64,000 nucleotides of DNA from Asparagopsis taxiformis. Taxonomy: Eukaryota; Rhodophyta; Florideophyceae; Bonnemaisoniales; Bonnemaisoniaceae. The notes beneath the pieces were generated by a model, which had not been told where the DNA came from, made no database searches, and saw nothing but the letters and a program-made list of their open reading frames with translations. The translations under genes and the position numbers were made by a program. Positions 15,856 through 43,641 of this stretch are shown here, one piece after another (the stretch's first letter is position 1; every line of letters starts with the position of its first letter). Location of the stretch: positions 62,001 to 126,000 of the forward strand of contig JALQPE010001888.1 of the NCBI GenBank assembly GCA_030407315.1. Reading direction: 5' to 3'.

Positions 15856-17038
15856 ACTAACGCACCCCTCGTGCCCCGACCCCATTCACCCAGACCTGGT
15901 GTGGCCCCGTCGAACATCATTTCTGGACCAGCCGGTCCCAAAGCATCCGGTCTCTGGAAGGCCAAAATCAAGTGGAAAAATCAACTTTTATTTTGGAATT
16001 TGTTTTTTTGGAAATTTTCCCACAAATATGACCCAAAAAATTTTCTTCACGACGAAATCCCATATTAGCTCACGTGCAAACTACAAAAATTTCGAAAAAC
16101 ACGACAACAACAAAAAAATTCCCTACCCCTATTGACCTTCTGGAAACCCGTCAAACTTCCAAAAAGACAAGCGAAAGTCAGTTCCAATCTATTTTGTCCG
16201 GAAAGCAAAGGAATTGTTTGCCATTTTACGAATCCTTTTGGACGATGAACTCCACATCGTCTACGCCATAAACAGCTGGCTCAGCAACCCAAACACCAAA
16301 TCTTGGTCTGGATATGCCGCCAAAAATTTATCCCAGCACTGACCCTATCAATAACATTGTCATACTATAAATTACGTACAGTGGTTATTGCTATTCGTGC
16401 GATATTGCGAAAATCAACTTTGCCCTGCACAAACCCACTCACAATCACCATATTGGTGACTATATTTCTTCAGACATTTGTGTAGCTATACCTGCAGATG
16501 TCAATCTTTATTGGCTAGCTACTGTAAATTTTCGCTACGACAAATATTTTGATCAAAAATTTTCTAGAAATTAGATCTGCTTTATTAGATTTACCACCGC
16601 CGCCGCCATTCAAATGAGCTCTACCCGGGTGGAGGAAAATACCTCCCCAGTTGATGGGTTCATAACCAGCGATGCCAAACCAGTTCCTGGAAATTCCACC
16701 CCATCATCCAAAAAACAACTCCTTAAGCGTCAATAATACACTTCCCCCCTCTCTGACAATCCTCCGCCCCAGCGCGTGCCATCGATCGCGAATTCACAGC
16801 CACGCCCCCCAGCCCTGCGACAAGTTATCATTCCCCACCCTCCTTGGGCAACCGCACACGCCTCTTGAGAAGGCATCCAACAACCCTTACATGTGTCGAA
16901 CTTTTCAAAGAAATCTGGAAATTGAAATATGCTGAAACTAAACCTTTTGGGTTGAGTTCTTCTGACAACAGAACCTTCCCAGAGCAACTGGTACTTTGTT
17001 GACTTTATTGAAATGAAAACAAGTTTCATCACAGCATA
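15856..17038. other. Decayed AT-rich DNA without a recognisable gene
   Basis: Only short ORFs, none with a recognised domain. Low-complexity Phe/Lys/Asn translations near 15960-16130 and a Pro/Ser-rich one near 16600-16850 suggest old, mutated coding or mobile sequence. It is continuous with 18295 onward once solo LTR A is removed. Confidence 0.4.
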
Positions 17039-21033: not shown

Positions 21034-21394
21034 TGTAACGAACTGAAGCTGATGCCAGCAATGGCCAGCATAAACTAGTGTATTCTAGACACTACAAGTT
21101 ACACTAAGTTTACTCATATACTATAGGCTGCTAGAAAGTAACTTGCTGTTACGCCTAGAAGTATCTAGTTGGCTATGTCATCGAGTGATGTCATGATGGC
21201 ATCATGTTAGATTTATTTTGATGACATAATTTTATTTTGATTAGTATTTTCTAGAATTAGTTCGACATCGAACTACAATTCTATGGTGGGTATAAAAAGG
21301 CATGGTCAACTCCGGTCTTGGGGGATCGGAGGCATCATCGATCATTCAACTAAAACAACTACCACTCAGCTATCCCGTATACACATTCGTTTCA
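21034..21394 (+). repeat. 5' LTR of gypsy element 3
   Basis: 361 bp, TG...CA, identical by eye to 39007-39367. A TATA box, TATAAAAA at 21291-21298, lies about 100 bp before the LTR end, placing transcription start in the final quarter (short R/U5). Confidence 0.93.
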
Positions 21395-21395
21395 C

Positions 21396-21407
21396 TGGTA
21401 GCATCGC
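21396..21407 (+). other. Primer binding site of gypsy element 3
   Basis: TGGTAGCATCGC begins one nt after the LTR. Its complement ends GCTACCA, the A73/U72 ending typical of eukaryotic initiator tRNA-Met, so a 12-nt initiator-Met primer is likely. The primer differs from that of elements 1 and 2. Confidence 0.55.
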
Positions 21408-21494
21408 TTTCTACGGGCGCACTGAGTGAGCAGTTCGGCAAACGCCGGCCGACTGCAAGCTCTTGGCTGAAAAGTCATCGTTGGGAGTTATTGA

Positions 21495-21708
21495 ACACCT
21501 GAGGGCAGGAGTGCCAGGTGTAAGAACTGTAGTGTCTGCTACACCTTGAGCAAGGGTAAGTTACCTGAGGGCAGGAAGGCCAGGTAACTAAGGGCCTACA
21601 GGAGGGACTGTAAGTGGTCAACCCGAGGGCAGGAGAGCTGGGTTGTACCTGAGGGCAGGAGGGCCAGGTGGTGTCTGAGGGCTGGAGAGCCAGACATCCC
21701 ACTTACAG
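21495..21708 (+). promoter_or_regulatory. Array of five covarying stem-loops in the leader RNA of gypsy element 3
   Basis: Five hairpins share a 13-nt loop close to AGGGCAGGAGRGC but have different stems, each self-complementary: ACACCTG/CAGGTGT (21495-21521), AGTTACCTG/CAGGTAACT (21559-21589), CAACCCG/TGGGTTG (21619-21645), ACCTG/CAGGT (21647-21669), TGTCTG/CAGACA (21672-21696). A further 10-bp stem, CTGTAAGTGG (21608-21617) with CCACTTACAG (21699-21708), encloses hairpins 3-5 as a multibranch domain. Compensatory stem changes with a conserved loop indicate selection on RNA structure, or selection before this copy died. Role is inferred: genome packaging, dimerisation or translation control. 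The rest of the leader (to 21988) shows a bulged hairpin near 21430-21465 and no ORF. Confidence 0.8.
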
Positions 21709-21988: not shown

Positions 21989-22647
21989 TGTAGTAGGTAG
22001 AAAATCCGCAAAGCGGCAAAACCACCCTACAGGTGTCCCGAGCTTCGGTAGCGTGGTAGAGCAAGCGAATCTTGCGTCAACCGCCAATGGCGTGTATACC
22101 ACGAAAGGTCTTCCGGTAATGCCGGGTGAAGGTTGGGGGTGCTCACGCACGAAGTGCGTATTGATGGAGCGAAAGACGTAACCCGTCGAGCTGTATAGCT
22201 AAAGCTAATTCGTCCTGGAAGGATGGAATAGAGCAATGCAAACACTGTTCAGTGGAGTCGTAAATTCCACGTGAGTTTACGTTACCTCTAAAAGGTTAAG
22301 CACTCTGGCTAATCCAGAGGCGTTTTATACTAGTCTAAGTTACTGTAAACAGTTAGGGTAGGTAGACAGTTAGGAATAAATATCCTTATGTGCACCAATC
22401 AGATCCCTGATTATGGCGACTGCGGAAGCCCGCGAGATCACCAACTGTTAGTGTTACAGTGTAAAGTTAGCTGAGTCAGCTTAGTTAAAATTTGCCCCTT
22501 GTGGGTTCTTTAATTGTCCCAGTGGGTCCATTCCCTTGACTTGGGCGAGATACAGCGAGGCTGTTTCTATTGGTCAGTCCCGACCCGGGGTCATCCAATA
22601 GGATGTTGACACGACCCCACCAGGGCAGACCACCGCGTGGTATGACA
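21989..22647 (-). repeat. LTR of gypsy element 2 (3' LTR in sense orientation)
   Basis: 659 bp, partner of 33659-34316; ends TATGACA. In sense orientation it is the downstream LTR, and it sits upstream of the antisense ORF. Confidence 0.95.
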
Positions 22648-22658
22648 TCGCCCCCTCC
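22648..22658 (-). other. Polypurine tract of gypsy element 2
   Basis: On the - strand GGAGGGGGCGA directly abuts the 3' LTR, as in element 1. Confidence 0.7.
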
Positions 22659-23123
22659 TAAGCCAATTGTCGTCCCGACAATTCCAAAAATCTACTGATT
22701 TTAAATTCCCAAATTATTTCCACCGCCGTGGCCGGCCAACCGGATAAAAATTTTGACCGCCAAAATTTGGCTGATATTTACCCGTGCACACGGTTCCACT
22801 CCCGAGCGTCGCTCATCATCTGAGTAACGACCTTTCAGGTTTGCGTCCTTTCACCGGCTTTGCCGTGTTGTCCAACCTTGTTCTCCCTCCGGTCCTGCCG
22901 GTTTGCGAAGCGATCTCGCCTGGCGATTCAAGTCTTGTGCCTCGCTGAGGTTTGCGCGCGTGATACGCGATTTTTCTTGCGTTAAGGGTAATACCCGCCT
23001 TGCGTTCTTCCGCGGCGTCCCTTCGGGATTCAAGCAAGACCTCACGCCTGTGGCGACCGTACGACTTGTCTGTTGCGTTGCTTCTGACTCCAGTGGAGTA
23101 TTTAAGGACTGCTGTTACTCAGC
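22659..23123 (+). other. Leader upstream of the antisense ORF of element 2
   Basis: 465 nt between polypurine tract and the first ATG of the antisense ORF, with no convincing ORF. An AT-rich stretch near 22690-22790 could act as promoter; no definite element was identified. Confidence 0.35.
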
Positions 23124-26100
23124 ATGGTCGATCGCATTAACAGCCCGACAGGCAACATGCCAACACGTTCTACGCGGGCGGCTTCCCGCCGTCCAACCAC
23201 CCGCCATCAGGCGTCGCGCGCACCTTCGACTCCAACCCCGGCGACGCCGACAACTAACCCTTCCGCTTCCGCTGCTGGCGTTCCAGCTTCTTCTTCTCAA
23301 CCACCGGATTCCGGTTCGCAGGCTAAACCCTCTACAGGGACTGGTCAAGAACAGGCGAAGACACCTTCGGCCGCTCACCGTCCGCCGAGTCCCTCACCTG
23401 AGGTTACGCCTCGCCCTATAAGAAAAGGAATATGTACCCCTGATATGCTTTAGATGAACCAATGATGTACGTGAATCTCTACTGTACGCAAGAGATACTT
23501 CGCTGTCCGTGAGCGTATGGACATCCCCCGTCCATCATTGGTATCGCTATGCGGCCATCAGCTGAAGAGCAAATGATCCTTATCCGTACATTAGGCATGT
23601 CATAGGTTCATCATGCGGCAATCTTTGGTACATCTTTAAGGCGGGTAAGACAATCCCGGTAAACCGGTTGTGCTGCCTTCGGTAGTTCCGCCCCCAAGCG
23701 ACCCTCATCCTGAGGTAGAAGAAGTTGAAGTTCAACGGGATACCCGCGTTCACCGCCATCGGACAAGCAAGGGACTCCCCAGCCTTCACGCCGCACGCCG
23801 GAACCGGCAGAAATTATCGTTGACGCTGCTGCGGCTTCGCAGCCCAGTTCGACCCCCGCGACTTCTGCCGCTCCTGCTGTCACAGGCCGTTCCATCGTTC
23901 CCCGTCCATCAGAGTATCCGGATCCTTATGCGAAACCTCGCTCGTCCACACGGAATCCCGTTACGGCTGAGCCGGTTAAGTCCAAGAATCCTTACGAGGA
24001 CTTATACAGCCGTAATCGGCAATTCATCATCGATGCGCGAAACCGCAAGGCGGCCGAAGAAGCGGGTCGCGGGCTGGTTGCCAGCAATTCGACGCGAGCC
24101 GCGTATGGGTCCGGTGGATATGAGACGGTGCAACCGCAAGGAAGACAAGGTCAGTTGGTAGATCCGTACCAAAAACCAGCTCCTGCTGTTACGGCTGCGC
24201 CGACTTATTCATCGCCCAAGCGGGTTCCGGCTCCTTCCGCCGATTGGCGTCGCGAAGGCGAATTTTATCCTTCGAATGCTTCGGAGCTCATGGTCTTTGA
24301 CTCACATGAGTTGCCTTTTTCAAGGTATTTGAGAGCTCCGTGGGAGTATTACCCTTTTGCGCGCCTGCCCCTACGGGAGTTTTTAAGCGAGGACGTTACC
24401 GACTTACGTCGAGACCTCCGTCTCATGGCAGGTGTTAAACACCGTGATACCCATGCGCTGCATAACAGCTGGTCGGCTTATGCCCAATTGCCGTCGTGTC
24501 GGCCGATGCGACATTTCCGTGTGCCACACACGTTGCTGTGCGACCGCACCTTTCTTCTTCACCCAGGCGATGCCTTGTACGTTGAGCGGATGAACCGTCG
24601 ATTGTTCGAGTCACACTCGGATCAAGGGAGCGTTCCCGACTTACCTATCGTTAGGTCAAGATGGTTTGCGTATCCGCCCCGCCCGGATACCGGTATGTTG
24701 GAACATCACATGCGTGTACACGCGCGTCACCTAGCCCGGACTACCGGTTTGCAAGTGTCGTCACTTGACTACCAAGTGTTCGGTTACCGAGCTAATCGGA
24801 GCATAGACCATCGCACTGCGAACTTGGTGGTACCTACAGCAGAGCTGAATTCGACGTTGGAAGATTCCCGATGGGAAGGCGAGAACTCACCGCCCTTGTG
24901 TTTGCCCATTGGGGATACACCAGCGATGCTGTATTTCCACAGTGTGGTAGAGGCGGATCCCCGTCCTTGGGTGAAGCCTCGGTTTTTGGACTATGTCCTG
25001 TTAGAGCGAGAGCTCATGATTGGTTTGGAATTGGCTCGTCTCGTAGAGACTAGAGGGTTCCTCCCGGTATTGGCCAAACACTTGGCAGAGTCGGCTATCA
25101 CGACGTGGAAGACATTCCATGAGATGCCGTTATCACCGGTTGTACCGAAGACGCGTAGCGTAGATGTGAAGGTTATCATCGACCTCCTCGAGGCTTCTTA
25201 CAAGACCACCGATGGTATAGAGGAGATTGCTTGTACAATCGAAGGCGTTGCGCCCGAGAAGATCTTCCTTTACTCGCATCCGAGTTTGCCCTTCAAACCG
25301 GCGAAGGCCGCGGCGTATACTACCCGGGACGGGACTGTGGTTGAGACTCCTCCGTTTCGTCGGGACGGTGAATTTGCCGAGGACGGCTATCTTACGGTCG
25401 ACCCGCCAAGTTACTCCGACGGAGATTTGGAGGACTACATGTACAAACCCGAACGGGAGATGCACGTTCCACGCCCTGGGCGTTCGACACCTGCTGGTCA
25501 TTATCGTCCAGCCGATTCCGGCGTCTCTCCTCATCCAACTGCTCCTGTAGAGCCAGCTTCTTACGAAGCGATGGAACCCCCGGCAGTTGTCCCTCCACCA
25601 GCCCCACTGGATCTTTCTCGCTCTACCCGTCCGGGTCTTCCGGCTTCTACGGCAGCGCCGTTTCTGTCACCAGACCGTCAATCCGGTCAGTCACTCGAGG
25701 ATGACGGTACGGTCGGTCGTGCTACCGCTCGCGCGGATGTTCTTGGATCCAGTTTGTCTGCGGCGCAGTTATTATCGGTTACGAATGTGCGCCAATTGGC
25801 GGATAGTCTTGGTGATGGCCAACTTTCGTCGGTGTTTCATCCACGGGATGACGGTTACCCCGTTCGCAATGCGTTGGATACTTTGGCGTTAACGTGTGTC
25901 ACGTTGGGTACTCGGTACAAGGAAAGTCGCGAGCGACGGGATGCTGCAGTAACGCGCTATCGCGCAGAGCGTACAGGTCGCCGCTTAGCGGAAGAGAAGG
26001 TGTCAAAATTGGAAAAGGACTTAACTGCGAGGCAGAAGACGTTCGATGAACTAGTGACAAGAGTCCGAGAGCTTGAGGAAGAATTGCGCTTAGCGCGTAG

Positions 26101-26557
26101 GCGCATACCGCATGAGCGGGGTAGGGATACGACACAAGCCCTGGAGACTCCAGCTAGTATTCAACCTCGAGGAGGGATATCCGGTCGTCGTCGGGATCGT
26201 TCTCCCGCTGAGCGCGACGATGGTCGAAATGTCCGCCCCCGGCGCGCTTCTCCAGTTAACACGACTCCGCCGTTGCTTCAGCGCATCGAAGCACGGGATC
26301 CCGTGAGGGAGGAGTCTCCGGATATGTCCGATGAGGTGGTCACTAATTCTCCGACGGTATCGGTTCCTTCAGTCCCTGCTGTGCCTCATCATCGCCCACC
26401 GGCTCGTTTAACCACTTCCCGTCGGGATGCTGGACGCATTCGTCCTCGCGACACTCGTCGTTCTACGGCTCAACATCCGACCAACCGGTCATTGAGGCCA
26501 ACCTCTTCCTACCCTTCGCATCAGCGCCCCCGTCCCTCCGACAACTTCCGACGTTAG
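23124..26557 (+). pseudogene. Antisense ORF of gypsy element 2: coiled-coil protein (disrupted N-terminal part)
   Basis: ATG at 23124 opens a Thr/Pro/Ser-rich frame that hits a stop at 23451-23453. After about 240 nt, coding resumes in the same frame (VVPPPSDPHPEVEEVEV), then shifts near 23740 to the frame that stays open from 23729 to the TAG at 26555. The long part has an aromatic globular region (REGEFYPSNASELMV to about 25310), a Pro/Ser linker, a coiled coil near 25900-26100 (ERRDAAVTRYRAERTGRR onward) and a basic Arg-rich tail. Position, strand and architecture match the 940-aa antisense ORF of element 1, though sequence similarity is weak by eye. No known domain is recognised. The gap could be an intron rather than damage. 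Confidence 0.6.
23425..23663 (+). other. Insertion or intron inside the antisense ORF of element 2
   Basis: About 240 nt with stops in all + frames separate two stretches of the same coding frame. It contains a 10-bp inverted repeat, ACCAATGATG (23458-23467) with CATCATTGGT (23533-23542). The flanking coding sequence shows CCTGAGGT on both sides (23400 and 23708 areas), so a GT...AG intron is possible. Not decidable by eye. Confidence 0.35.
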
Positions 26558-26888
26558 ACGTCTTACTTCCGTAACCGGGTTTACCTTCTTATACGCATTT
26601 GCGTTTCACTCTCATGTTAGATCGTTCATCCATGCGCCGTGTGCGGCTTTGTCATGTCTCCCATTAAAATTTGGAATGTTTTTGTTGTTTTTATGGAATT
26701 TTTCGTCCGCCGATTGGCTTCATATTTCTACCGCTCGCGGTTTTTGTTATTTGGCCAACCCGACGGGTGCTGTTCGTGGGGTCTTACCGGCTCAACCTTG
26801 TGGTCATTAGCGGTGACGCCGCGATCACTAGCCGTTCCTACTGACGCTCTTGCGTACAACAGCTTCGCTGTGGGGCAGCTCTGCCGTT
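26558..26888. other. Spacer of element 2 between antisense ORF and pol
   Basis: 330 nt with no ORF of note; no AATAAA was found soon after the antisense stop, in contrast to element 1. Confidence 0.5.
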
Positions 26889-27590
26889 CTACTTACCACG
26901 CCTTTTGGCCGTTCGTCGTTTAGACGTTTTCTTACCCGCTTGGCGGTCAACTTTCCGGAAGTACCGAGATATTTGCTCGTCTGGCACGTTGTGCCGTTGC
27001 GTCCACGTAGGGTCACGATACCCGTACCACTTCACGAGGAACCATTCCTCCTGATCGTCGTCGACGACATAATCGATCAAGTCGTCTATGGCGAATTCCT
27101 GTTCCTCAGGTGGTCCCAGGTTGTGGGAGACAGTTCCCGGTTCGGGTATAACCTCTTGGCTCGACGAGCGTCGTCTGCTTCCGGTGTTGGCCGTGTCCCC
27201 GCAGGGTTTATCGGCTCAGCCGAAGTGGCTTCTTGGGATATTTCCATGCCGTGTGGTCGGCTTATTCTTGTTTGTCGACGAGAGCGACTATTCTTCTTCG
27301 GACTTGTTCCGGTTGGTGCCTTATGGGTTGATCGGCGTAGCCGGGAGAACGTCTTGTTGGCGTCTTGGGAAGCAGGTTCCTGCATTGTGTCAAGAGTTTC
27401 ATCCTCGGCGAGGTCAATTTGAGTGGTCATTGGCTGTGAAGCAGCATTGTTATTACGACGTATGTCAGCCTGGGCCCCCTCCTCAAAGACGGTTCGTCTC
27501 GGACCGATACTCGGTGTGTTAGTTACAGAATTACCTTCAACCGCGGGGCGGGATGACAAAGGCTTGGTTACAGGGTGACCTGGGGTTGTC
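26889..27590 (-). pseudogene. Pol C-terminus of element 2: linker and chromodomain in displaced frames
   Basis: After the pol stop at 27568-27570 coding continues in another frame (charged linker, 27086-27590), then in a third that holds a chromodomain, DYVVDDDQEEWFLVKWYGY and TWTQRHNVP, ending with a Lys/Arg-rich tail at 26889. Two indels, near 27575-27590 and 27090-27120, therefore separate the chromodomain from pol. In element 1 the same region is fused in frame, which shows the ancestral state. The chromodomain would direct integration to chromatin marks. Confidence 0.8.
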
Positions 27591-30500
27591 CGGTGTGAAG
27601 AGGTACGCGCTGCGGACCTGATGTCTCGCGACGTAGTCGTTCTTCCGCCATAGTCGGCACCGTGTTGGCGGCTTGATCGTCGGTTCTTGCCGCAGGTACG
27701 GGTGCTCCGTTAGAAGTTAACCGTGAGTGCGGTATTTCCTGTTCAGGTTGTGGCGCATACGTCACGCGGTCGTGGCTAACTTGTTCGACAAGTCCATCAC
27801 GTTCAATATGGACGGTACGCCTACCGGCTTTAGCAACCTTAAAAGGTCCTTGCGCCAGTGGCGTCAACTTGTTTCGTTCCCGTACTTCGGGGTTGTCAAG
27901 GTAGACGTAATCACCCTCCTGAAGGAGTCGTTTGGTCTTCCGGATCCTTCGGTCAAAGTCCCGTTTATAACGCGCTTGCGTGGCTTGTAGCCGTTGACCG
28001 GACTTCTCAATCGCGTGAGCAATCCGTTGCAGGAAATCCTGTTTCAAGAAAGCGTCCGGTTTTTGCCGTGATCTCGTCGAGTGATGAAGGGAGTAAGGTG
28101 GTGGGGGTCGACTTAGGATAAGGTCAAAGGGTGTCGTCCCTGTCGTGCCTGTCGTGCGATGCACGTGCGTATTATACGCGTAAGTCAACGCTGGTGCGTA
28201 CACATCCCAGTCATTCTGGTTCTCATTTACGTAGTTGCGTAACATGTTCAACAACGTACGGTTATACCGTTCTACCTGACCGTTGGTCTGAGGGTGGTAG
28301 GTTGTTGTGAACAAGTTCTTTGTTCCAAGTTGCAGGCAAACAGCCTGAAAAAGTTTGGAAGCAAACTGAGGTCCATTATCGGAAAGCAACGTCCTAGGGG
28401 GACCGTACTTGAAAACCCAGTGGGTGCAAAAGGCAACAGCCACATGGTAAGCAGTGATACTGCGTAATGGTACAACCTGAGTAAGCTTCGTGAAGCGACA
28501 GGTAATTACTAAAAGGTGAAGGTTACCCTTCTTTGTTTTAGGCAACGGGCCTAATAAGTCTATAGAGACTTCTTCCAGCGGTGCTGAAGCTGGGAATAGT
28601 TTCAATGTGTTTGCGTGTCTACGCAACTTGAGGCGGTTCTTGGCGCAAGCCTGACAACGTTCAACCGTAGCGGTGATATCCGCGGCCATGGCAGGCCAAT
28701 AATACGAGAGACGCATAGTCTCATACATACGGTTTTGTCCGGGGTGACCCGCGAGTACGTCGTGATGACACATCTTCAACAGGCGGGGCCTGAGTGTTCT
28801 TGGTACAACCACTTGGTGGGAATTGTCCAGATTGGATTTACGTCGCAAGACACCTTGGTCATCTTCAAAGAAGACAGTGTCAGACTTCTGACTTGTCAAT
28901 ACTTGTTGACAAAAGTCATCAGAGCGTTGCTCCTCAATCCACTCGTTGAGTGTTATCGGTTCGGAACCCTCTGTCTGAGGGTGTGTCGTTAGGACAGCTG
29001 GGTTTATTCCCGTTAGGGATTTGTCAGTGTAATTCCGCGCGATGAGCACATCAAAGAACCAAGGGTTCATCTCTTCTGTAACAGGTACTTCCTGGGTAAG
29101 GTCATACGCGAAGAGTGTGGGAATTTCGTCATCCACCGGATGTGGGTCTAACCCTTCTGTTTCAACACGCGATAACGCGTCTGGTACTTGGTGAACCCTA
29201 CCGGGGCGATAGACTATGGTGTAGTCAAACTCTGAAAGGCGGAGTCGCCAACGGCAAAGGCGCCCGGATGGGTCGGTGATGTTCATCAACCAACGCAACG
29301 CGTTATGATCGGATCGTACCACAAACTTTGTTTGCTCAAGGTATGGTCTGAGGGTAGTGACTGCCCATACTACAGCGAGACACTCGCGCTCTGTCGGAGA
29401 ATATCCCCGTTCGGGTTTGGTTAAGGTCCGCGACCAGTATCCTACAGGACGATAGTCGTCGTCATCCTGCTGTTGCAACAGCGCACACCCTATCTGATAC
29501 GCAGAAGCGTCCGTGTCTACGATGTAGGGTTTACCCACTCTTGGCAGAGCCAATATTGGTGGTTGCACCAAGGATTCCTTGAGTTGTTCAAACGCGTGGC
29601 GTTGTTCCTCTGTTGGAGGCATTGAACCGAAGCTCGGTAGGTTTTCCTTAGTCAACATCGCGTTGAGGGGGTGGGAGATATCCGCGTACCCCTTCACGAA
29701 ACGGCGGAAGACCCCGCAGCTCCCGAGGAAAGAACGCATTTGCGTAGGTGTGGTCGGAAAAGTTGCTTTCGCAATAGCGTCCGTTGCCGTTTGGGCGACC
29801 GCTAGCTTACCTGGCATAACCACATGTCCAAGGTAATCTACCTTCGCTTCGAAGAAGTGGCACTTGGCCAGTTTTAGGGTTACCCCTGCCTTCCTCAACA
29901 GTGTGAGTACCTGATCCACCTGATGAAGGTGTTCTTCCTCACTCCGTGAGAAGACGATGACGTCGTCAAGATAGATGAGACAAGTTTGCCAGCGTACGCT
30001 GCTTAAGATAATATCGATAGCACGTTGGAACGTGGCGGGCGCATTCTTCAGCCCGAAGGGCAATCGTTTAAATCGATATGTTCCAAGGTGCGACGTAAAG
30101 GCCGTCTTATCCCGATCCTCGGAGGCAACGGGAATCTGCCAATAGCCCGAGTTACAGTCGAGCGTGGTGAACACGCGTGCATCTCCTAAGGAGTCTATAC
30201 AATCGTCCATACGAGGCAACGGATAAGCGTCCGATATTGTGATATCGTTGAGACGGCGGTAGTCAACGCAAAAGCGTAGCTTACCATCCTTCTTGGGTAC
30301 CAAGACAACTGGGCTAGCCCACTCAGAATTCGAGGGTTCGATGACCCCTTTCTCTAGCATGGAGATGATCTCCTTACTTGCTAGCTCCCTTCTCAAGGGT
30401 CCCATCCGGTATGGTTGCTGTCGACGAGGTCGACTTCCTTCGATTACATCGATCCGATGCTCGGTTGCTTTAATGTCTCCAAGAGACCCGTCCCACATGG

Positions 30501-31638
30501 ACTCATGCTGCGATAGCATCGCTATAATTTTCTCCTTCAACTGCGGTTGCTGAAGGTGTTCCAAGGATACATCCTCCCGCCATTGCGGATTCTCTTTCTC
30601 CTTGGTTCCCGTCGCCGGGTTGGTCAGACTGATGATACGGTCTGTACCGGAAGAGGATAACTCACTGGGGAGCTTTCGATCGGCTGTGCCGGGTGCTCGA
30701 CGAGCAATACCAACAACCGTCCCCTTCGGGAGGTATCTCTCTGCTGACCCAAAATTCGTTAGAATAACAGTGAAGACTGTTCGAGGAATGATTTCGGCAA
30801 TGCCGTTCGGCATTGAGATCCGCTGTCGGTGGAAAAGTTTTCCCTTCGCCTCGAGGAGGCTTAGTCCGCCCCCAGCACAGACAACCGATGCGGTTACTTG
30901 ACTCATGGGGGGAAGGGTGATTTCTCTTGCTAGCCGGATCCTGTTGGACTGGTGGTCCAAGTCAGTACCCTGCGAAGGGCTTGAATCATGTATATAGCAA
31001 GAAGAAGAAGAGTTGTTCATTTTACTCACATTCTGCATAAGCAGTATGGCTATCGAGCCACCATCATGCACATCAATGCGCTGAGCGCGGCATCGAATTG
31101 CCTCTACATGCGAGTTCATGATACCTGTTCCCAGGATAACTGGTACTGCCAGCTTAGGGGCTACAAAGAATTCTGCGTCCAGAAGCTTTCGGCCTAGCTG
31201 TATTAGCAGCTTGATTCTTCCCGTTATCCTGAGAGGATTACCATTGGCGTCTGCCAGTTGAGGGATATTCCCGGTCTGCGCGGCATAGGCCTTCCATCCC
31301 TTCGGTAAGGTTGATTCTTGGACGACCGAAGGACCGGAACCGGTGTCCATAACCATACGCATGGGCGTTAGAAGTGTCTCGGAAATTCCGATCGAACCTA
31401 AAACCACGTAGTGGGCTGCCTTCAAGAGACATGCAGCCTTTGGCTGAGAGGGGAGGGGATAAGGGATATCCCCGGTTGGTGTCTGGGTAGGACGGTTCAA
31501 CCGTTTTGGTTTCTTCGTTCCACCCTGTGGAGGTGTAGATGGTGCGATATCCACCCCACAGCGAAGCTGTTCCACCCCCTGGCGGGAGCGCGACACCTCA
31601 CTCCCCCCGGTTAGTTTTCCGACGAAGTGTCGGATGTT
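27568..31638 (-). CDS. pol: Pol polyprotein of gypsy element 2 (protease to integrase)
   Basis: The open frame extends from 31638 and has no early ATG; it overlaps the gag end by 28 nt in the -1 frame, so it should be made by frameshifting. The only nearby slip candidate is GGAAAAC just before the gag TAA, which is not a canonical heptamer. Domains in order: protease DTGSG; RT with FTTLDCNSGYWQIP and YLDDVIVF; RNase H with DTDASAYQIGCALL and SDHNALRW; integrase HHCC (HHDVLAGHPG, CQACAKN) and the D, D, E blocks VSIDLLGPLP, LLSDNGPQF, YHPQTNGQVERYNR. Catalytic residues are intact over about 1340 codons. It is closely related to the pol of element 1. Confidence 0.92.
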   Translation of the reverse strand, partial: NIRHFVGKLTGGSEVSRSRQGVEQLRCGVDIAPSTPPQGGTKKPKRLNRPTQTPTGDIPYPLPSQPKAACLLKAAHYVVLGSIGISETLLTPMRMVMDTGSGPSVVQESTLPKGWKAYAAQTGNIPQLADANGNPLRITGRIKLLIQLGRKLLDAEFFVAPKLAVPVILGTGIMNSHVEAIRCRAQRIDVHDGGSIAILLMQNVSKMNNSSSSCYIHDSSPSQGTDLDHQSNRIRLAREITLPPMSQVTASVVCAGGGLSLLEAKGKLFHRQRISMPNGIAEIIPRTVFTVILTNFGSAERYLPKGTVVGIARRAPGTADRKLPSELSSSGTDRIISLTNPATGTKEKENPQWREDVSLEHLQQPQLKEKIIAMLSQHESMWDGSLGDIKATEHRIDVIEGSRPRRQQPYRMGPLRRELASKEIISMLEKGVIEPSNSEWASPVVLVPKKDGKLRFCVDYRRLNDITISDAYPLPRMDDCIDSLGDARVFTTLDCNSGYWQIPVASEDRDKTAFTSHLGTYRFKRLPFGLKNAPATFQRAIDIILSSVRWQTCLIYLDDVIVFSRSEEEHLHQVDQVLTLLRKAGVTLKLAKCHFFEAKVDYLGHVVMPGKLAVAQTATDAIAKATFPTTPTQMRSFLGSCGVFRRFVKGYADISHPLNAMLTKENLPSFGSMPPTEEQRHAFEQLKESLVQPPILALPRVGKPYIVDTDASAYQIGCALLQQQDDDDYRPVGYWSRTLTKPERGYSPTERECLAVVWAVTTLRPYLEQTKFVVRSDHNALRWLMNITDPSGRLCRWRLRLSEFDYTIVYRPGRVHQVPDALSRVETEGLDPHPVDDEIPTLFAYDLTQEVPVTEEMNPWFFDVLIARNYTDKSLTGINPAVLTTHPQTEGSEPITLNEWIEEQRSDDFCQQVLTSQKSDTVFFEDDQGVLRRKSNLDNSHQVVVPRTLRPRLLKMCHHDVLAGHPGQNRMYETMRLSYYWPAMAADITATVERCQACAKNRLKLRRHANTLKLFPASAPLEEVSIDLLGPLPKTKKGNLHLLVITCRFTKLTQVVPLRSITAYHVAVAFCTHWVFKYGPPRTLLSDNGPQFASKLFQAVCLQLGTKNLFTTTYHPQTNGQVERYNRTLLNMLRNYVNENQNDWDVYAPALTYAYNTHVHRTTGTTGTTPFDLILSRPPPPYSLHHSTRSRQKPDAFLKQDFLQRIAHAIEKSGQRLQATQARYKRDFDRRIRKTKRLLQEGDYVYLDNPEVRERNKLTPLAQGPFKVAKAGRRTVHIERDGLVEQVSHDRVTYAPQPEQEIPHSRLTSNGAPVPAARTDDQAANTVPTMAEERLRRETSGPQRVPLHTGQPQVTL

Positions 31639-33542
31639 TCATCTGAAGATGCTAGAGCATCAACTGCGGTTTCTTCCGAACGAGAAGGACCAATACTCCG
31701 TTGCAATCCGGAAGCCAGATTTGTTTGTTCAACGACGTTGTCGTCCTCGGCAAACGCGACCATTCGCGGAAACGGTTTCTGCCGTTGGAGAACTGTTTTA
31801 GCAGGGACCTGCTTCTTCTTGAACTTGTCGAATTGCCGTTGCTGGCGGCGCATGACTTGTTCCGGCTCTTGCTGGTATGCATAGTTCGCGAAAGCGAAAT
31901 ACATTCCCACGGAACGGGAGAGGTACGGGCATGTGTACAGCACGTGACCGGGTTGCCGGCATCCGGAGCAGCGCCAATTGACCGCTCCCTTCGGGATCAT
32001 GGATTCGGCAAGACTCACATGTTCCTCTGTGAGGGGCGGTACCTCCATCGGCGGTGTCTCCGCGTTCGGTCCCACGGTCAGTGGTTGTAACGTCTGCGAC
32101 GTAGACATTTCTCTCCTCATTCCGAGGTCTTCATTAGCCATGGTAGCTAATAACGCTTTGCGTTTCCTTTCGGCAAGCTCCCTACTAGGGTACATCTTGG
32201 GCTTAGCCGTGTCGGCTGTGGTGGCTCTTAAGGAATCTCCGAGTCCTTTAGCCAAATTGCGTACCGCAAGGAAGTCTTCGCCGTCTCGGCCAACAGTCAC
32301 CTTAACGGTGTCTTTTACCCCCGGGCGTAGCCCTTTGAGGTAGTAGTTTACCAAGTCTCTCTCAGAGAAAACATTAGCACACAACAGTGCGGCCTCTTGC
32401 AGTCTATCGGCGTATTCTGCCTCATCTTCGTGAGGTTCTTGTTTAATACGCGTGACCGCGTCGTAGGCGTCAGCCAAAACTGTATCCGTTGCATAACGAG
32501 AAAGTAAAGCATGGACGGCCTGTGGCCACGTTATCTGCTGGTGCAGTTGATTTAGCAACTTCCTTTTCCGAGATTCGGACGCGATGAATCGTTGCGCATC
32601 TCCTTCAAGGAAATAACGTAGCAACTTTGTTGCTATTCCTTCTGATACTCCGCAGGAGTCACAAGCATCTTGGTACTCCGCAAGGAATCGAAGTATATCG
32701 ATGGGTTGCGTTCCATCGAACGGCGTCAAGGACGCATTGAAGTTCCGGATCTTTTCCGTTATCTTGTAGAGACTTCTACTCTTTCCGTTCGGAGCTTCTG
32801 TCGATGACGACTTGTCTTGTAACCGGTAATACCGGTAGGATACTACACGATCGAACGCGGGTTCGCGGGCTCTTAAAGGAGTTAAGCCTGGTTCCAGGGG
32901 TCCTTCTTCTGTTTCGAATGGATTCGAAGGTGTATCACCAAACCCAAAGACTGGGTCACCCACGTTGGGATTTCGACTTGGTACCGGACGGGCGAGAGAC
33001 TCGCTGAGTAAATCCACTCGATCCGACAAACGTCTGGTGACGTCAACGACCTTGTCGAGCTTCTCGGCTTCCACAGCTACGCTGTTCTCGGCAGTGCCGT
33101 CTTGTTGATTCCACAGCCCTTGGTGCTGATGATCGGAAGAAGAACTAGCGTAGCTTCTCCTTTGTAGGTCGGTGACCTTCTTCTCAAGCCGGATAACCCG
33201 TTGTAGAAAATCCACACGGATAGACTTCCACGTCCCCGAGAAGACTTCTACTTCTTTCTCATCTACCACTTCGTGGCAAATGGCTTTCAGCTTGGGTGCA
33301 AGCAAATCAATCGTGTGATCCACGAGAGTTGAGACGAGATCGCCGTGTCTATCATCGAGGGTGTCCTCAACAGCTTGGCTGATCTCGTCGCGCATCTCTT
33401 TCAATTTATCATTGAGAATCTTGTCTGCATGTTCATGCATAAGTCGGAAGACTCCTTCCTCAGTGACGAATTCTTCGTTTGAACCTCCCCCGATAGGGCC
33501 TGACTCGGAGTCAGAATGTTCCGGAGACTTGTCCGATGGCAT
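31611..33542 (-). CDS. gag: Gag protein of gypsy element 2
   Basis: Start chosen at the ATG at 33542 (MPSDKSPEHSDSESG), 643 codons to a TAA. Acidic N-terminus, a helical and coiled-coil-like segment (about 20-170), a capsid-type region (PFDGTQPIDILRFLAEYQDACDS, then ALLSRYATDTVLADAYDAVTRI and EYADRLQEAALLC) and a CCHC knuckle CSGCRQPGHVLYTC near residue 525-540. The arrangement parallels the element 1 gag. Uninterrupted. Confidence 0.9.
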   Translation of the reverse strand: MPSDKSPEHSDSESGPIGGGSNEEFVTEEGVFRLMHEHADKILNDKLKEMRDEISQAVEDTLDDRHGDLVSTLVDHTIDLLAPKLKAICHEVVDEKEVEVFSGTWKSIRVDFLQRVIRLEKKVTDLQRRSYASSSSDHQHQGLWNQQDGTAENSVAVEAEKLDKVVDVTRRLSDRVDLLSESLARPVPSRNPNVGDPVFGFGDTPSNPFETEEGPLEPGLTPLRAREPAFDRVVSYRYYRLQDKSSSTEAPNGKSRSLYKITEKIRNFNASLTPFDGTQPIDILRFLAEYQDACDSCGVSEGIATKLLRYFLEGDAQRFIASESRKRKLLNQLHQQITWPQAVHALLSRYATDTVLADAYDAVTRIKQEPHEDEAEYADRLQEAALLCANVFSERDLVNYYLKGLRPGVKDTVKVTVGRDGEDFLAVRNLAKGLGDSLRATTADTAKPKMYPSRELAERKRKALLATMANEDLGMRREMSTSQTLQPLTVGPNAETPPMEVPPLTEEHVSLAESMIPKGAVNWRCSGCRQPGHVLYTCPYLSRSVGMYFAFANYAYQQEPEQVMRRQQRQFDKFKKKQVPAKTVLQRQKPFPRMVAFAEDDNVVEQTNLASGLQRSIGPSRSEETAVDALASSDETSDTSSEN

Positions 33543-33638
33543 CACTTCTACTCTTGTTCAATGAGCTCACGTCTCACGACGAGTTTACTCTTCTTGAGTG
33601 GTTTCGGTGTGTCGCCGGTCGGCTAAGATGTCGGTAAG

Positions 33639-33657
33639 ATTCTAGGTCGAGAGACCA
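33639..33657 (-). other. Primer binding site of gypsy element 2
   Basis: The same 19 nt as in element 1, one nt from the 5' LTR on the - strand, beginning TGGTCTCTCGACC. Conservation between two diverged elements supports its use as the primer site. Confidence 0.8.
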
Positions 33658-33658
33658 A

Positions 33659-34316
33659 TGTAGTAGGTAGAAAATCCGCAAAGCGGCAAAACCACCCTAC
33701 AGGTGTCCCGAGCTTCGGTAGCGTGGTAGAGCAAGCGAATCTTGCGTCAACCGCCAATGGCGTGTATACCACGAAAGGTCTTCCGGTAATGCCGGGTGAA
33801 GGTTGGGGGTGCTCACGCACGAAGTGCGTATTGATGGAGCGAAAGACGTAACCCGTCGAGCTGTATAGCTAAAGCTAATTCGTCCTGGAAGGATGGAATA
33901 GAGCAATGCAAACACTGTTCAGTGGAGTCGTAAATTCCACGTGAGTTTACGTTACCTCTAAAGGTTAAGCACTCTGGCTAATCCAGAGGCGTTTTGTACT
34001 AGTCTAAGTTACTGTAAACAGTTAGGGTAGGTAGACAGTTAGGAATAAATATCCTTATGTGCACCAATCAGATCCCTGATTATGGCGACTGCGGAAGCCC
34101 GCGAGATCACCAACTGTTAGTGTTACAGTGTAAAGTTAGCTGAGTCAGCTTAGTTAAAATTTGCCCCTTGTGGGGTCTTGAGTTGCCCCAGTGGGTCCAT
34201 TCCCTTGACTTGGGCGAGATACAGCGAGGCTGTTTCTATTGGTCAGTCCCGACCCGGGGTCATCCAATAGGATGTTGACACGACCCCACCAGGGCAGACC
34301 ACCGCATGGTATGACA
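33659..34316 (-). repeat. LTR of gypsy element 2 (5' LTR in sense orientation)
   Basis: 658 bp partner of 21989-22647, followed by the second GGTTT duplication at 34317-34321. Differences cluster around 34165-34185. Confidence 0.95.
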
Positions 34317-34531: not shown

Positions 34532-35298
34532 ATGTCGTTATTGAAGCCCAATAAGCCCCGACATTCGATGGAACGCGTGATGCGTTTACTGTTCGGACGT
34601 GGCTACACTCTGTTGGAAGGTACATTTCTCTCATTCAGGTAGGCTCGGATGCAGAAATATCCGATAAACAAGCTATTGATTTCGCTTCGACGTTCATGAC
34701 AGGGGTGGCTGCCAACTGGTGGTTTACCGTTGTCAACGGAGCGAAAATGCCTGATTCTTGGGAGGCCTTCTCAAACCTGGTTATTCAAGAGTTCGTTCCT
34801 CAAGATAGAGCTGTTAGAGCTCGCGATAAGCTCAGCAAGTTGAAACAGAAAACAAGCGTTTCTGCCTATCTTTCCGAGTTTAGGAACATCGTAATCAATA
34901 TCCAGGATATGAGTGAGGGTGAGAAGTTGGCTCGTTTCTGTGAAGGTCTTAAGGCTCATATTCTTCTTGATGTTCGCAAGAACAATCCATCGGACCTTGA
35001 TGCCGCTGCAAACATTGCTCTTAGCGTTGATGGTGCTTATTACGGAGCTGGGTTCTATACAGGAAAAGTTGTTCCTTCAAGTTATTCCGGGTACGCTCCC
35101 ATGGAAATCGGCAACTTCGAGAAAAGCCATTCCATGAATGCCCAGAAGAGGAAGGATATTCGTGAGAACCTATGCTTTGTATGTCACAAGCCCGGTTGCA
35201 GAGCTTATAGGCACAAAGGGGAAGTCAAGAAGAAGCTTAACACGAACAACACTCAGGTTCATTGGGGAGCACCAAGTTCCTTTCCGCAGGAAAACTAG
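34532..35298 (+). pseudogene. gag: Gag of gypsy element 3 (frameshifted)
   Basis: ATG at 34532 starts MSLLKPNKP; the frame then fails and coding continues in another frame from about 34560 (TFDGTRDAFTVRTWLHSV, a typical gag start), through GVAANWWFTVVNG and FVPQDRAVRARDKLSKLKQ, to TAG at 35296. A single indel near 34558 explains the break. The zinc-knuckle region reads CFVCHKPGCRAYRH, with Cys and His exchanged against the usual CCHC order, so it is either a CCCH variant or a damaged knuckle. The gag end overlaps the pol frame by 37 nt. Confidence 0.8.
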
Positions 35299-38200
35299 TC
35301 GGTCCTCCTAAAAACAAGTTGTACGCTCAGGATGGACCTGAAAGGAGTGTGAATGTTCGATGCGCTGATGCGCAAGTTAAGAGACCAGAAAAGCCAGGAA
35401 GGGCTGTTCCAAGGCAGGAGAAGGGCCGTGTAGAGCCGAGAGTCTTGGAAGCTGAATCAAATACTATTGTTGGGAAAGAAAGCATCACTACTGATGACCC
35501 TATACCAGTAGATCCATTATTGGTTTTCCATGGAAAGTTGAACGGATTACCAGTCAAAGTATTGAAAGATGATGGATGCAATACCAACGTAGTAGGGGCC
35601 GAGTTTCTGAGGAAGCAGAAATCTCGAGGAAATTTCATGATTCAGAAAGAGAAAATACAAGTCTCACACTCTCGAAAAGGTTCCACGGAAGAAGCATCTG
35701 AAGTAATCATCAAAGGAAAATTGAATATGGGTTCACATACCTATACATAAAATTGGGTTGTTGCCAATTGTAGGTATGATGTTCTTTTGGGGATGCCATG
35801 GCATGTCGCCCACAATCCAGTTATCGATTACAAAAAAAGGATTGTGAAATGTGGCCATCAGTTGCTTCACGCCTGTAAAGATCCTGATGATCCAAGGATT
35901 CATGTGACGAATCTTGGAGTGAGAAAATTCAGAAAAATGTTACGGAACAGGAAGAACAGTAATGACTTTGAAGTGTATCAAGTATTCGAAAAGGAAAATA
36001 TTCAGGGAATGAAAGGTTCCAAACACAGTGAGAGGTTGGGGAAGTTACTGACAAAGTACCAGGAAGTGTTCAGAAGTGATCTTCCAGATGGACTTCCTCC
36101 CAAGCGAACAGTAGATCACGCGATCGATGTTCAGAAAGATGCTAAACCTCCACTGAGACCTCTATTTCAGCTGTCTCCCGCGGAACTAAGAGCAGCTAAG
36201 GAATATGTCGAGGAACTGCTGAAGAAAGGAAAAATAAGATCAAGTAAGTCACCTTATGGAGCTCCTCTGTTCTTTGTCAAAGAAAAAGACAAGCTTCGTG
36301 GAGTAGTCGATTATCGAGCTTTGAATCGAATCACGAAGAGGAACAACGCTCCATTGCCGAGATCTGATGAAATGTTTGATCGCCTTGGGAGATCAAAATA
36401 TTTTTCAAAACTAGACCTCAAGACGGGGTTCCATCAGATCAGGGTGAAGCCGGAAGACATCGAGAAAACAGCGTTTAATACAAAATATGGGCAGTTCGAA
36501 TATCTTGTCATGCCTATGGGTCTGTGTAACGCTCCTGCAACGTTTCAGACCTTGATGAACCAGATTTTCTATGATTGTATTGATGTTTTCTTGGTTGTTT
36601 ACCTAGATGATCTACTAGTATTCAGCAAAACGGAAGAGGAACATTTTCGGAACTTGGAAACTGTATTGGAACGTCTGAAGAGAAATGAATTGTACGTTTC
36701 TCCAAAGAAATGTGAATTCTTTCAGACAGAGATCGACTTCTTGGGATTTTGGTTGGTAGAGACGGCATCAGGGTTAATCCTGAAAAGGTTGACGTCCTTA
36801 AAACCTGGCCAAAACCAAAATCATTGACAGAGTTGAGAAGTTTCCTTGGTCTCTTACAGTTTTTCCGAAGGTTCATTCCGAAATTCTCTGGGATTGCGTC
36901 TCCATTGACGGATCTGACGAAGAAAGAAAAGGGTATTGGACAATGGGATGAAATCTGTGATGAAGCTTTCCAAAAGTTGAAAGATGCAATGATTCAGGCT
37001 CCAATATTAGTTGCACCTGATTGGAGAAAGGCCTTCCGAGGTCATGTTGATGCATCTCAGCTCGCTGTTGGTGGTACTCTAACTCAGCTGGACGAGAATG
37101 GGAAGGATCGTGTTATTGCCTTCTACTCAAAGAAGTTATCATCCACTGAGGCAGATTATACAGCGAATGACCGAGAACTTTTGGCTTTGATTTGTTTCTT
37201 GGAACGATTTCGATGTTACCTCGAAGGAGTTGAATTTGAAATATTCACAGACAACCAAGTACTAAAGAGTTTCTTTTCGAAAGTCAAGTTGAGTCGAAAA
37301 GAAGCGAGATGGTTGGAAACTCTAGGTAACTTTGGTATATTCCCGATAACCCTCAAACCTGGCAAGATTCATGTATTGGGTGATGTTTTATCAAGGGCTC
37401 CTCACGTTATAGCTGGGCGAAATGCTTCATTTAGCAATATTGAAGTACCTGAAATCAATTTTGAGGACATTGTAACCCGATATGATGATGACCAGTTCTT
37501 CGGACCAGTGGTAAGAGCCATGGAAGGATATTTTCCTGAAGATGAGATTCAGAAACGGAAGCTGGAAAAGATCATACCATTGTTTTGTCGTGAACGGGCG
37601 AGGCTATTTTACAATGGAAATTTGTGTGTACCGAGAAGGTCTGTGTCCAGTATTTTGCAAATGGCACATGACTCTAGGATAAGCGGTCATTTCAAGTTCT
37701 TGAAGACGCTAGCAAGACTTGAAAAATTCCATTGGAGACACAAAGCCCGAGATGTCCGGAAGTATGTGGAGGGATGCATGAAGTGTCAGCAATACAAAGA
37801 CTCTAATCAGAAGAAGTTGACTGATCCAACTTCTTTAGAGATTCCTGAGAGAAGATGAGGATCTCTAGCAACCGACTTTATCGTAAGTCTACCCAAGACA
37901 AAAGACGGTTATGATGCCATAACTACCTGGGTAGACCGGTTGACGAGAAGAGTTCATTTTATCAAGTCAAGAGGTACTGACACTGCTGAGGATGTTGCGA
38001 ATGCATTCTTCTCCAACATATTCAAGCTTCATGGACTTCCTGACTATGTGGTATCGGATCGAGATAGAAAGTTTACATCCAAGTTTTGGGATTGTTTGAT
38101 GGAACTATGTGGCGTTAAGCTCAAGATGTCTACGAGCAGGCACCCACAGACGGATGGCACGTCCGAAATCATGAATCGGATGATTGAGAACTATCTTCGG

Positions 38201-39006: not shown

Positions 39007-39367
39007 TGTAACGAACTGAAGCTGATGCCAGCAATGGCCAGCATAAACTAGTGTATTCTAGACACTACAAGTTACACTAAGTTTACTCATATACTATAGG
39101 CTGCTAGAAAGTAACTTGCTGTTACGCCTAGAAGTATCTAGTTGGCTATGTCATCGAGTGATGTCATGATGGCATCATGTTAGATTTATTTTGATGACAT
39201 AATTTTATTTTGATTAGTATTTTCTAGAATTAGTTCGACATCGAACTACAATTCTATGGTGGGTATAAAAAGGCATGGTCAACTCCGGTCTTGGGGGATC
39301 GGAGGCATCATCGATCATTCAACTAAAACAACTACCACTCAGCTATCCCGTATACACATTCGTTTCA
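39007..39367 (+). repeat. 3' LTR of gypsy element 3
   Basis: 361 bp, identical by eye to 21034-21394, with TATAAAAA at 39264-39271, followed by the second TACCC. Confidence 0.93.
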
Positions 39368-42360: not shown

Positions 42361-43641
42361 CTAGTCGTCTCTAACGAGTCTAAATTTGGAGAACACAAAG
42401 GGGTATCTGGCCTGGAAGAAGTTTCGAAACGAGGGTCTTCTACAAATGGGCAGGGTGACCCAACTGGCTCCGCGGAGGACAAAGTGTTTGCCGTCAAAAA
42501 AATCGGCCGAATAGCCTTCGTAACCTTGGGTGGGCACGAAGCCAGCAAACATTTCGAAAACTGACGTCGTCAGCTCCCAACCGTTGGTCTGCAATTGACA
42601 GACGGGGCCGTTATCGGAGTCGACGTGCACAGAAGTCGGTTGCGAGGTTGGTTGTGAGCGATCCTTTTCACAGAATGACACGGCATGCACCCATTCATGC
42701 TCGGTGCATAAACGGGCACCGGCCCATTTTGCGTACGCTCGCGCCTCTGCCAACGAGACGGAGACGGGCCAATCAGCCGCTTCGCCTTGAATGGCGTGCG
42801 TGGAGTGGACGCGGATGACAGCCTGATCGCCTGTGAGGATTCGAAATTGCAAAACGGTGTCGTCGTCATCATCATCGTTGTGTTGGTATCTCCAGGATTG
42901 CGGGTGTGAAATCTTGTCGCGTACAATCCATTTCCAATCATCTGGTTGCCAGAACTGCTCGCGATGATAGCCGTTGTCCAGAACGAACGTGAGATAATCC
43001 GCGCATGAAACGGGGTAACGCGCCATAGAAAACGGAGCGACTGGATATTTGAGCTCATCAAATTCATTATCCCAGCCAAAAGTCGCGGCGGACATGACGG
43101 ACGGCCTGGCGGTACCTGAGGCGACAGCGGCGGCCGGGAAGGAAACCCAATGGACGGATGGGGGCGAAACGTGCGACGCAACATGCGAGACAGTTGTCGC
43201 GGGGACGACATGCGGGGACGATTGGGCAAGCATGTATTTCAAGGTCTCGATGTGCATTGCCTCGTGCTCGGCGACGATGCGCAGCACGACGGGAGAGATG
43301 TGTGCGGCGTGGACAGCGATGCTACGACGCACGTCGCGTTGATAGTCGAGCAGGACGCGCCATTGGGGATAGGCGAGGTCGGGGACGGCGGAGGCGTCGA
43401 TGTCCGGGTCGATACCGCGCTCGAATTGACGCTCGTAGACGGCGTTCACGGCGGCCAGATGCGGCGCGGCGCGGCGGATGAGGTTCCAGGAGAAGGCGGG
43501 GAGATGGCCGAGGTAGAAGATGAAGGGATGGCGTAGATGAATGGGGCGTGTGTGCGCGTTATGGGCGCCGATTTCACAAGCGAATAGCGCGTCCGTCTCG
43601 CGCCAGATGGCGGCGAGGTCTGCGGGGGACGCGGCCGTCAT
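42361..43641 (-). CDS. EgtB/OvoA-type non-haem iron sulfoxide synthase
   Basis: 426 codons from ATG, no intron needed. Residues 1-140 are a DinB-like four-helix domain: HPFIFYLGH (His 46) and EHEAMHIET, the HX3HXE motif (His 126, His 130, Glu 132) that binds iron in EgtB. Residues 165-426 form the C-type-lectin-like FGE/sulfatase-modifying fold: FGWDNEFDELKYPV, ISHPQSW, WAGARLCTEHEW, NGWELTTSVFEMFAGF and LRGASWVT...FRLVRDD. EgtB joins gamma-Glu-Cys or Cys to trimethylhistidine in ergothioneine synthesis; OvoA does the same with histidine for ovothiol. Which substrate applies cannot be read from the sequence; no methyltransferase domain is fused. Length matches bacterial EgtB (~430). Predicted cytosolic. 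First gene of a - strand island. Confidence 0.85.
   Translation of the reverse strand: MTAASPADLAAIWRETDALFACEIGAHNAHTRPIHLRHPFIFYLGHLPAFSWNLIRRAAPHLAAVNAVYERQFERGIDPDIDASAVPDLAYPQWRVLLDYQRDVRRSIAVHAAHISPVVLRIVAEHEAMHIETLKYMLAQSSPHVVPATTVSHVASHVSPPSVHWVSFPAAAVASGTARPSVMSAATFGWDNEFDELKYPVAPFSMARYPVSCADYLTFVLDNGYHREQFWQPDDWKWIVRDKISHPQSWRYQHNDDDDDDTVLQFRILTGDQAVIRVHSTHAIQGEAADWPVSVSLAEARAYAKWAGARLCTEHEWVHAVSFCEKDRSQPTSQPTSVHVDSDNGPVCQLQTNGWELTTSVFEMFAGFVPTQGYEGYSADFFDGKHFVLRGASWVTLPICRRPSFRNFFQARYPFVFSKFRLVRDD

Follow-up and report, generated by a model that had tools for sequence, protein, structure and literature searches.

The hairpins that serve as packaging signals in retroviral leaders differ among themselves. 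In MMTV, Gag binds the GGAG purines in the SL4 loop, and changing these purines lowers packaging (PMC8096270, in excerpt). The HIV-1 nucleocapsid contacts the GGAG loop of the psi hairpin, and replacement of the GGAG apical loop was without significant effect on packaging, as described in excerpts of one and the same source (PMC7599994); the dimeric HIV-1 leader is credited with more than two dozen nucleocapsid sites in the excerpted text of PMC7395439. In alphaviruses, packaging proceeds by four to six stem-loops with a conserved GGG that act together (PMC8233893, in excerpt). The packaging sequences of Ty3 are called 'not precisely defined', and even for the yeast element the place at which Gag binds RNA of this type has yet to be settled, as far as the excerpted parts of PMC11381356 and PMC4974528 go.

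We analyzed a stretch of 64,000 nt from the red alga Asparagopsis taxiformis (hereafter the window), in which an earlier note had pointed to five stem-loops in the leader of a gypsy element. The genome examined is an assembly of 141.5 Mb in 3156 contigs, window included. An element of such form was absent from the matches listed in word searches of the open literature, and none of 4227 Rfam families matched the window at gathering score.

Host element

The element that carries the five-hairpin array is a Ty3/gypsy LTR retrotransposon, and it is young. Its parts are:

21034..21394, plus strand: 5' LTR of 361 bp with TG...CA ends, 100% identical to the 3' LTR
21396..21407, plus strand: primer-binding site TGGTAGCATCGC, read from the sequence; the motif recurs in locus L070
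21395..21988, plus strand: leader as far as a nested insertion
21989..34316, minus strand: antisense gypsy element inside the leader, with LTRs at 21989-22647 and 33659-34316
34696..35298, plus strand: gag ORF of the outer element, with Retrotrans_gag and Ty3_capsid domains; similarity to gag extends from about 34561
35787..37858, plus strand: pol region with RT, RNase H and integrase zinc-binding domain, in Ty3/gypsy order
39007..39367, plus strand: 3' LTR

The outer element is flanked by a 5-bp target duplication (TACCC on each side), which together with the TG...CA termini agrees with Ty3/gypsy, as does the domain order Retrotrans_gag, Ty3_capsid, RVT_1, RT_RNaseH and Integrase_H2C2; the integrase core gave no match in the ORFs scanned for the window copy. 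By analogy to Ty3, we take the tRNA that primes at TGGTAGCATCGC to be the initiator tRNA. In the window copy, the array and gag are separated by the nested antisense element (LTRs of 659 bp, 98.9% identical; target duplication GGTTT). By eye, a sequence resembling this nested element also precedes the leader of locus L071. Copy L002 is uninterrupted: its gag begins 803 nt past the LTR (leader at 1501-2303), and we used this copy as the reference for the complete leader.

The Gag knuckle (P0001) reads CX2CX4CX4H instead of the common CCHC form, and the Pfam matches reported for this Gag include no zinc-knuckle model. Gag relatives among the matches listed are 51-66% identical, and Gracilariopsis chorda (51%) is the sole organism-named one; related proteins also occur on metagenome contigs. 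Elsewhere in the window, a host-like protein of SUMF1/EgtB type is encoded at 42361-43638 on the minus strand. It resembles proteins of red algae and bacteria that carry an annotation for ergothioneine synthesis, its best organism-named match listed being from Chondrus crispus (41%), followed by many bacterial EgtB-type proteins.

Layout and predicted fold of the array

The array spans nt 101-302 downstream of the 5' LTR and consists of five hairpins of 23-31 nt each, in which a common 13-nt core is carried on different self-complementary arms. The structural features, all on the plus strand, are:

21465..21476: small hairpin GGCT-GAAA-AGCC upstream of the array (AGTC in the window copy; mean pair probability 0.97 in L002)
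21495..21521: hairpin 1, arms ACACCTG/CAGGTGT, hexaloop A-GGAG-T
21527..21532 (CTGTAG) with 21596..21601 (CTACAG): stem of a second closed domain, around hairpin 2 (mean pair probability 0.80 in L002)
21559..21589: hairpin 2, arms AGTTACCTG/CAGGTAACT, hexaloop A-GGAA-G
21608..21617 with 21699..21708: 5' and 3' arms of a 10-bp stem enclosing hairpins 3-5
21619..21645: hairpin 3, arms CAACCCG/(C or T)GGGTTG, hexaloop A-GGAG-A
21647..21669: hairpin 4, arms ACCTG/CAGGT, hexaloop A-GGAG-G, the weakest of the five
21672..21696: hairpin 5, arms TGTCTG/CAGACA, hexaloop T-GGAG-A

A mechanical repeat search returned five copies of a 24-nt unit (21497-21520, 21563-21586, 21621-21644, 21647-21670 and 21673-21696) with starts 66, 58, 26 and 26 nt apart and 71-96% identity to copy 1, and reproduced the recurring cores, arms and coordinates of the earlier note. 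The 10-bp stem that the note had drawn around hairpins 3-5 was likewise recovered mechanically. When the first 400 nt of the L002 leader were folded, the mean pair probabilities were 0.94, 0.90, 0.88, 0.71 and 0.86 for hairpins 1-5 and 0.97 for this closing stem. Uninterrupted Watson-Crick arm pairs in the family sequence number 7, 9, 7, 5 and 6, respectively. A T at 21639, which gives a G-U pair in hairpin 3, occurs only in the window copy; of 30 copies compared, the remaining 29 have C, and with it a G-C pair.

The core had been taken for a 13-nt loop. Predicted folds instead pair part of it, so that each hairpin is composed of a stem, a 3-nt purine bulge (GAG/AGG), 2-3 bp and an apical hexaloop. 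The hexaloop contains GGAG in four of the five hairpins, in the form A/T-GGAG-N, and GGAA in hairpin 2. For each hairpin the minimum-energy form accounts for only 38-67% of its own ensemble, and in hairpins 1 and 5 the inner pairings of the minimum-energy folds differ.

Single hairpins are predicted to be mild (−6 to −13 kcal/mol), and the whole fold is predicted at −93 kcal/mol over 220 nt. The 241-nt region folds with z = −2.45, and 3 of 200 shuffles were equally good. Among 200-nt segments scored against 40 shuffles each, the seven that end by nt 400 have z values of −1.1 to −2.9, with only −1.24 for the segment closest to the array (nt 101-300) by itself, and the eleven later ones range from −0.8 to +1.4. 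By these predictions, the leader is more highly structured in its 5' part than further downstream.

Paired change between the hairpins

The central claim of the earlier note was that the arms had changed in pairs around a constant core, and inside the array this is borne out. The true assignment of arms to one another gives 34 pairs, the best of 120 assignments; the next best reaches 33, because hairpins 1, 2 and 4 have ACCTG/CAGGT in common. In a 27-nt alignment of the five hairpins, 97.8% of the paired cells pair, and sliding the partners cuts this to 17-43%. Both sides changed between hairpins in five of nine pairs (five of the seven arm pairs). The covariation score of 0.556, as compared with a shuffled mean of 0.219, was reached by 0 of 500 shuffles, and two of the other measures were reached by 1 of 500, all of these shuffles ignoring the relatedness of the five hairpins.

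Between hairpins, the arms differ at 40% of sites (24% at the inner five positions) and the core at 12%, or at 7% without its one free position. This position reads T, G, A, G and A in hairpins 1-5, which indicates that time for change was available. If a common ACCTG/CAGGT ancestor is assumed, 12 arm pairs postdate it by our own count, and simple arithmetic puts the chance of all 12 being Watson-Crick at ~6e-8, or ~8e-6 with G-U allowed. We conclude that the array is likely a selected RNA structure. The covariation evidence comes from five paralogous hairpins, not from independent lineages; the family copies are mostly 98-99% alike and hold no compensatory change, so it is the paralogous hairpins that carry the covariation.

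Other copies of the family

We examined 50 distinct copies, a sample of the genome's total; 40 of 80 candidates from the leader search were scored, places such as C784, C900 and C1833 from the pattern count lie outside the sample, and C1847 and C2430, among the 50, cover the array only in part. Exact cores number five in 36 copies, four in 8, three in 5 and one in 1, so that 49 of the 50 have at least three. Counted as a pattern genome-wide, adjacent core pairs occur 113 times (68 plus, 45 minus; about two per full copy) and the reversed control 0 times. Against the leader in the window, the 39 other copies listed show 98-99% identity. The leader of the degenerate copy C820 is about 91% identical to that of L002, and C3134 matches the C820 leader at 99%.

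The expectation that other copies keep the complementarity of the arms holds for 38 of the 50, in which all five family arm pairs are intact, but not for the other 12; the window copy itself counts four, with its T at 21639. An alignment of family leaders had been suggested as a check on covariation. The copies are too alike for this purpose, and the substitutions in their arms are uncompensated: 13 differing copies contain 21 paired-site substitutions in nt 1-306 (indels excluded; two in the small upstream hairpin; one, at nt 165, common to two copies), of which 8 lead to G-U, 13 break the pair and 0 are compensated. Further paired-site changes beyond the 21 are found at nt 166 in C2416 and nt 310 in C1997. 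The paired change evident inside the array is thus not seen among family copies. In 11 diverged copies, the substitution density is 1.78% in arms, 2.85% in cores, 1.75% in the rest of nt 1-320 and 2.10% in nt 321-803; arms and cores are no better conserved than the remaining leader. These diverged copies look like dead insertions that drift freely and, as such, neither confirm nor refute selection. The count of 0 compensated out of 21 speaks against frequent mutational self-correction of the arms.

Several copies are rearranged. In C820 (L068), leader nt 213 is followed by a 27-nt insertion that repeats the neighbouring closing stem and arm of hairpin 3 as their reverse complement, a fold-back strand-switch scar. 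C704 (L072) has lost one hairpin through exchange between hairpins 3 and 4, and the arms are left mismatched. On C590, leader copies lie head-to-tail at 9897, 15538, 21179 and 26820, every 5641 bp and gag likewise, as if elements shared LTRs; this is either a real tandem array or an assembly effect. C2430 and C2429 contain tandem 3749-bp units with gag, and the unit that was read (L067) retains only hairpin 5, with other sequence in place of the leader upstream of it.

Absence of ATG from the leader

The 803-nt L002 leader contains 0 ATG; in 500 dinucleotide shuffles the mean was 8.3 and the lowest count 3. ATG is the sole trinucleotide of the 64 that is missing, and its reverse complement CAT occurs seven times. 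The 74 nt of LTR ahead of the L002 leader are also free of ATG, and an ATG is present in the leader of C820. The absence is strand-specific and points to ribosomes scanning the leader, so that translation must enter the explanation. Mild hairpins can be melted by scanning ribosomes, and those of the array, being only moderately stable, could be melted by ribosomes on such a leader.

Distribution beyond the family

The gags of the related elements C100, C59 and C844 of the same genome score 48%, 43% and 41% to the query, as compared with 54% for the array family. In these related elements, for which L070, L071 and L077 served as samples, the leader is under ~100 nt long, as judged by eye between the primer motif and the onset of gag similarity, and contains no array; the array is therefore not required by every relative. 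With default filters, a hairpin model found nothing in eight other-family loci (L070, L071, L077 and L079-L083), the negatives for L079-L083 being weak because the stretches used have no recognisable primer site. In the window, the same model recovered hairpins 1, 2 and 4 and gave one weak extra match (16797-16823, minus strand, E 0.81); it missed hairpins 3 and 5, and its negatives are accordingly soft.

Two sets of candidates were rejected. A search for the core on non-family arms gave 4 exact matches, against 3 for the reversed-pattern control; by eye, three were isolated without pairing arms and one was a mutated family copy. In the prokaryotic collection, 17 stretches fit a loose tandem pattern, but their arms form no more than 2 bp, and many of the stretches consist of simple repeats of 8 nt (GAGGGCTG-like). 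The hairpin patterns were absent from the viral contigs, and gag-based scans of viral contigs and prokaryotic genome contigs returned no relative, although the silence of these collections says little. As far as seen in this genome and in the viral and prokaryotic collections, the array is known from one element family.

Discussion

Our preferred reading, to which we give an even chance, is that the array is a selected RNA structure whose reiterated hairpins dock Gag for packaging within a scanned leader. The array would comprise five copies of one protein-docking hairpin, each with an unpaired GAG/AGG bulge and a WGGRRN hexaloop on a stem of free sequence; hairpin 1 would stand by itself, hairpin 2 would belong to a closed domain, and the 10-bp stem would gather hairpins 3-5 into a compact one. 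Several Gag molecules would bind the exposed GGAG/GAG purines via the nucleocapsid end of Gag, and this would mark the full-length RNA for packaging, as in retroviral leaders. Scanning ribosomes could melt the moderately stable hairpins, so that a single RNA would act as gag-pol message and also as genome.

The array lies between the primer-binding site and gag, judged from DNA order and a transcript start that we infer, and this psi-like position counts for packaging. Packaging by Gag, one of the functions raised in the earlier note, is plausible from position, purine loops and analogy; the identity of the bound protein and the scanning are, like it, proposals. Against our reading are the related elements without an array, the unusual Gag knuckle, the z of −1.24 for nt 101-300, the 13 of 21 paired-site substitutions that break their pair, and the finding in HIV-1 that packaging was not significantly affected when the GGAG apical loop was replaced (PMC7599994, in excerpt). 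The equal conservation of arms, cores and remaining leader among diverged copies gives it no support. A modular, countable encapsidation array, in which five interchangeable bulged purine-loop hairpins with freely evolving stems sit in an ATG-free scanned leader, we put forward only tentatively. If true, it would amount to a repeat-based packaging code, of which there was none for LTR retrotransposons among the literature matches listed.

The main rival to encapsidation is translation: the hairpins might control how ribosomes load, or be the binding site of a host factor that governs translation of gag by repression, shunting or internal entry. A leader free of ATG is expected if ribosomes read through it, and the total fold is stable (−93 kcal/mol over 220 nt), but the lack of ATG is equally compatible with plain scanning, and five copies of a purine-loop hairpin look like a binding array rather than a roadblock. 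A pararetrovirus-type shunt has a short upstream ORF before the stem; neither the L002 leader nor the preceding 74 nt of LTR offers an ATG to start one, and we rejected the locus as a leader of this kind. Overall, we consider translational control rather unlikely. The hairpin could also have been duplicated by unequal exchange or strand switching, its arms being kept complementary by fold-back copying with no selection involved. Both processes have occurred here, as the inverted 27-nt insertion of C820 and the exchange of hairpins 3 and 4 in C704 attest. Repeated copying of this kind is nevertheless an unlikely source of the array, since none of the 21 paired-site substitutions in 13 copies was compensated, and since the core was kept while the arms diverged, a difference unexpected without selection on the core.

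Repeat arrays can also act as DNA, the gypsy insulator being an example, and a 13-15 nt motif that occurs five times downstream of a promoter might bind a host factor as enhancer or insulator repeats. Binding to the core would leave the covarying arms unexplained, and the spacings correspond to ~6.3, 5.5, 2.5 and 2.5 helical turns, so that sites in DNA would not face one side; we regard this as very unlikely. Still less probable, and hard to credit, is that two genomic RNAs are joined via the loops of the array. Retroelement 5' ends do contain dimer sites, and for Ty3 a palindrome has been proposed in this role (PMC11381356, in excerpt), but none of the five loops contains a palindrome of at least 6 nt. 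Within nt 1-330, such palindromes occur only as GCCGGC and CGGCCG, at leader positions 50-57, and dimerization via the loops of the array, which had been among the functions suggested, is not supported.

Returning to encapsidation by Gag, a self-contained 27-nt hairpin, present fivefold in a young and numerous element, makes an unusually clean test object. Short RNAs would allow the number of hairpins, the loop and the stem to be changed independently of one another, the natural differences between arms supply ready stem variants, and RNA structure and absence of ATG come together in one leader.

Among known systems, yeast Ty3 and Ty1 have, as here, a structured 5' end with replication functions, and Ty3 is a Ty3/gypsy relative. 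Their 5' RNA is characterized by palindromes, a bipartite primer site and, in Ty1, a pseudoknot, whereas tandem constant-loop hairpins are not described in the excerpted text of PMC11381356 and PMC4974528. The alphavirus nsP1 packaging signal is likewise built of repeated small stem-loops with one G-rich motif (PMC8233893, in excerpt), but it lies in the coding sequence of an unrelated positive-strand virus, and we claim no common ancestry. MMTV SL4, with its ssPurines, and the HIV-1 psi hairpin/SL3, as portrayed in the excerpts cited at the outset, resemble the array in leader position between primer site and gag, in exposed GGAG purines and in the presence of several hairpins. They differ in that their hairpins are unlike one another, whereas here one hairpin is repeated five times, and in that Gag binding was measured in MMTV and HIV-1, whereas here we infer it.
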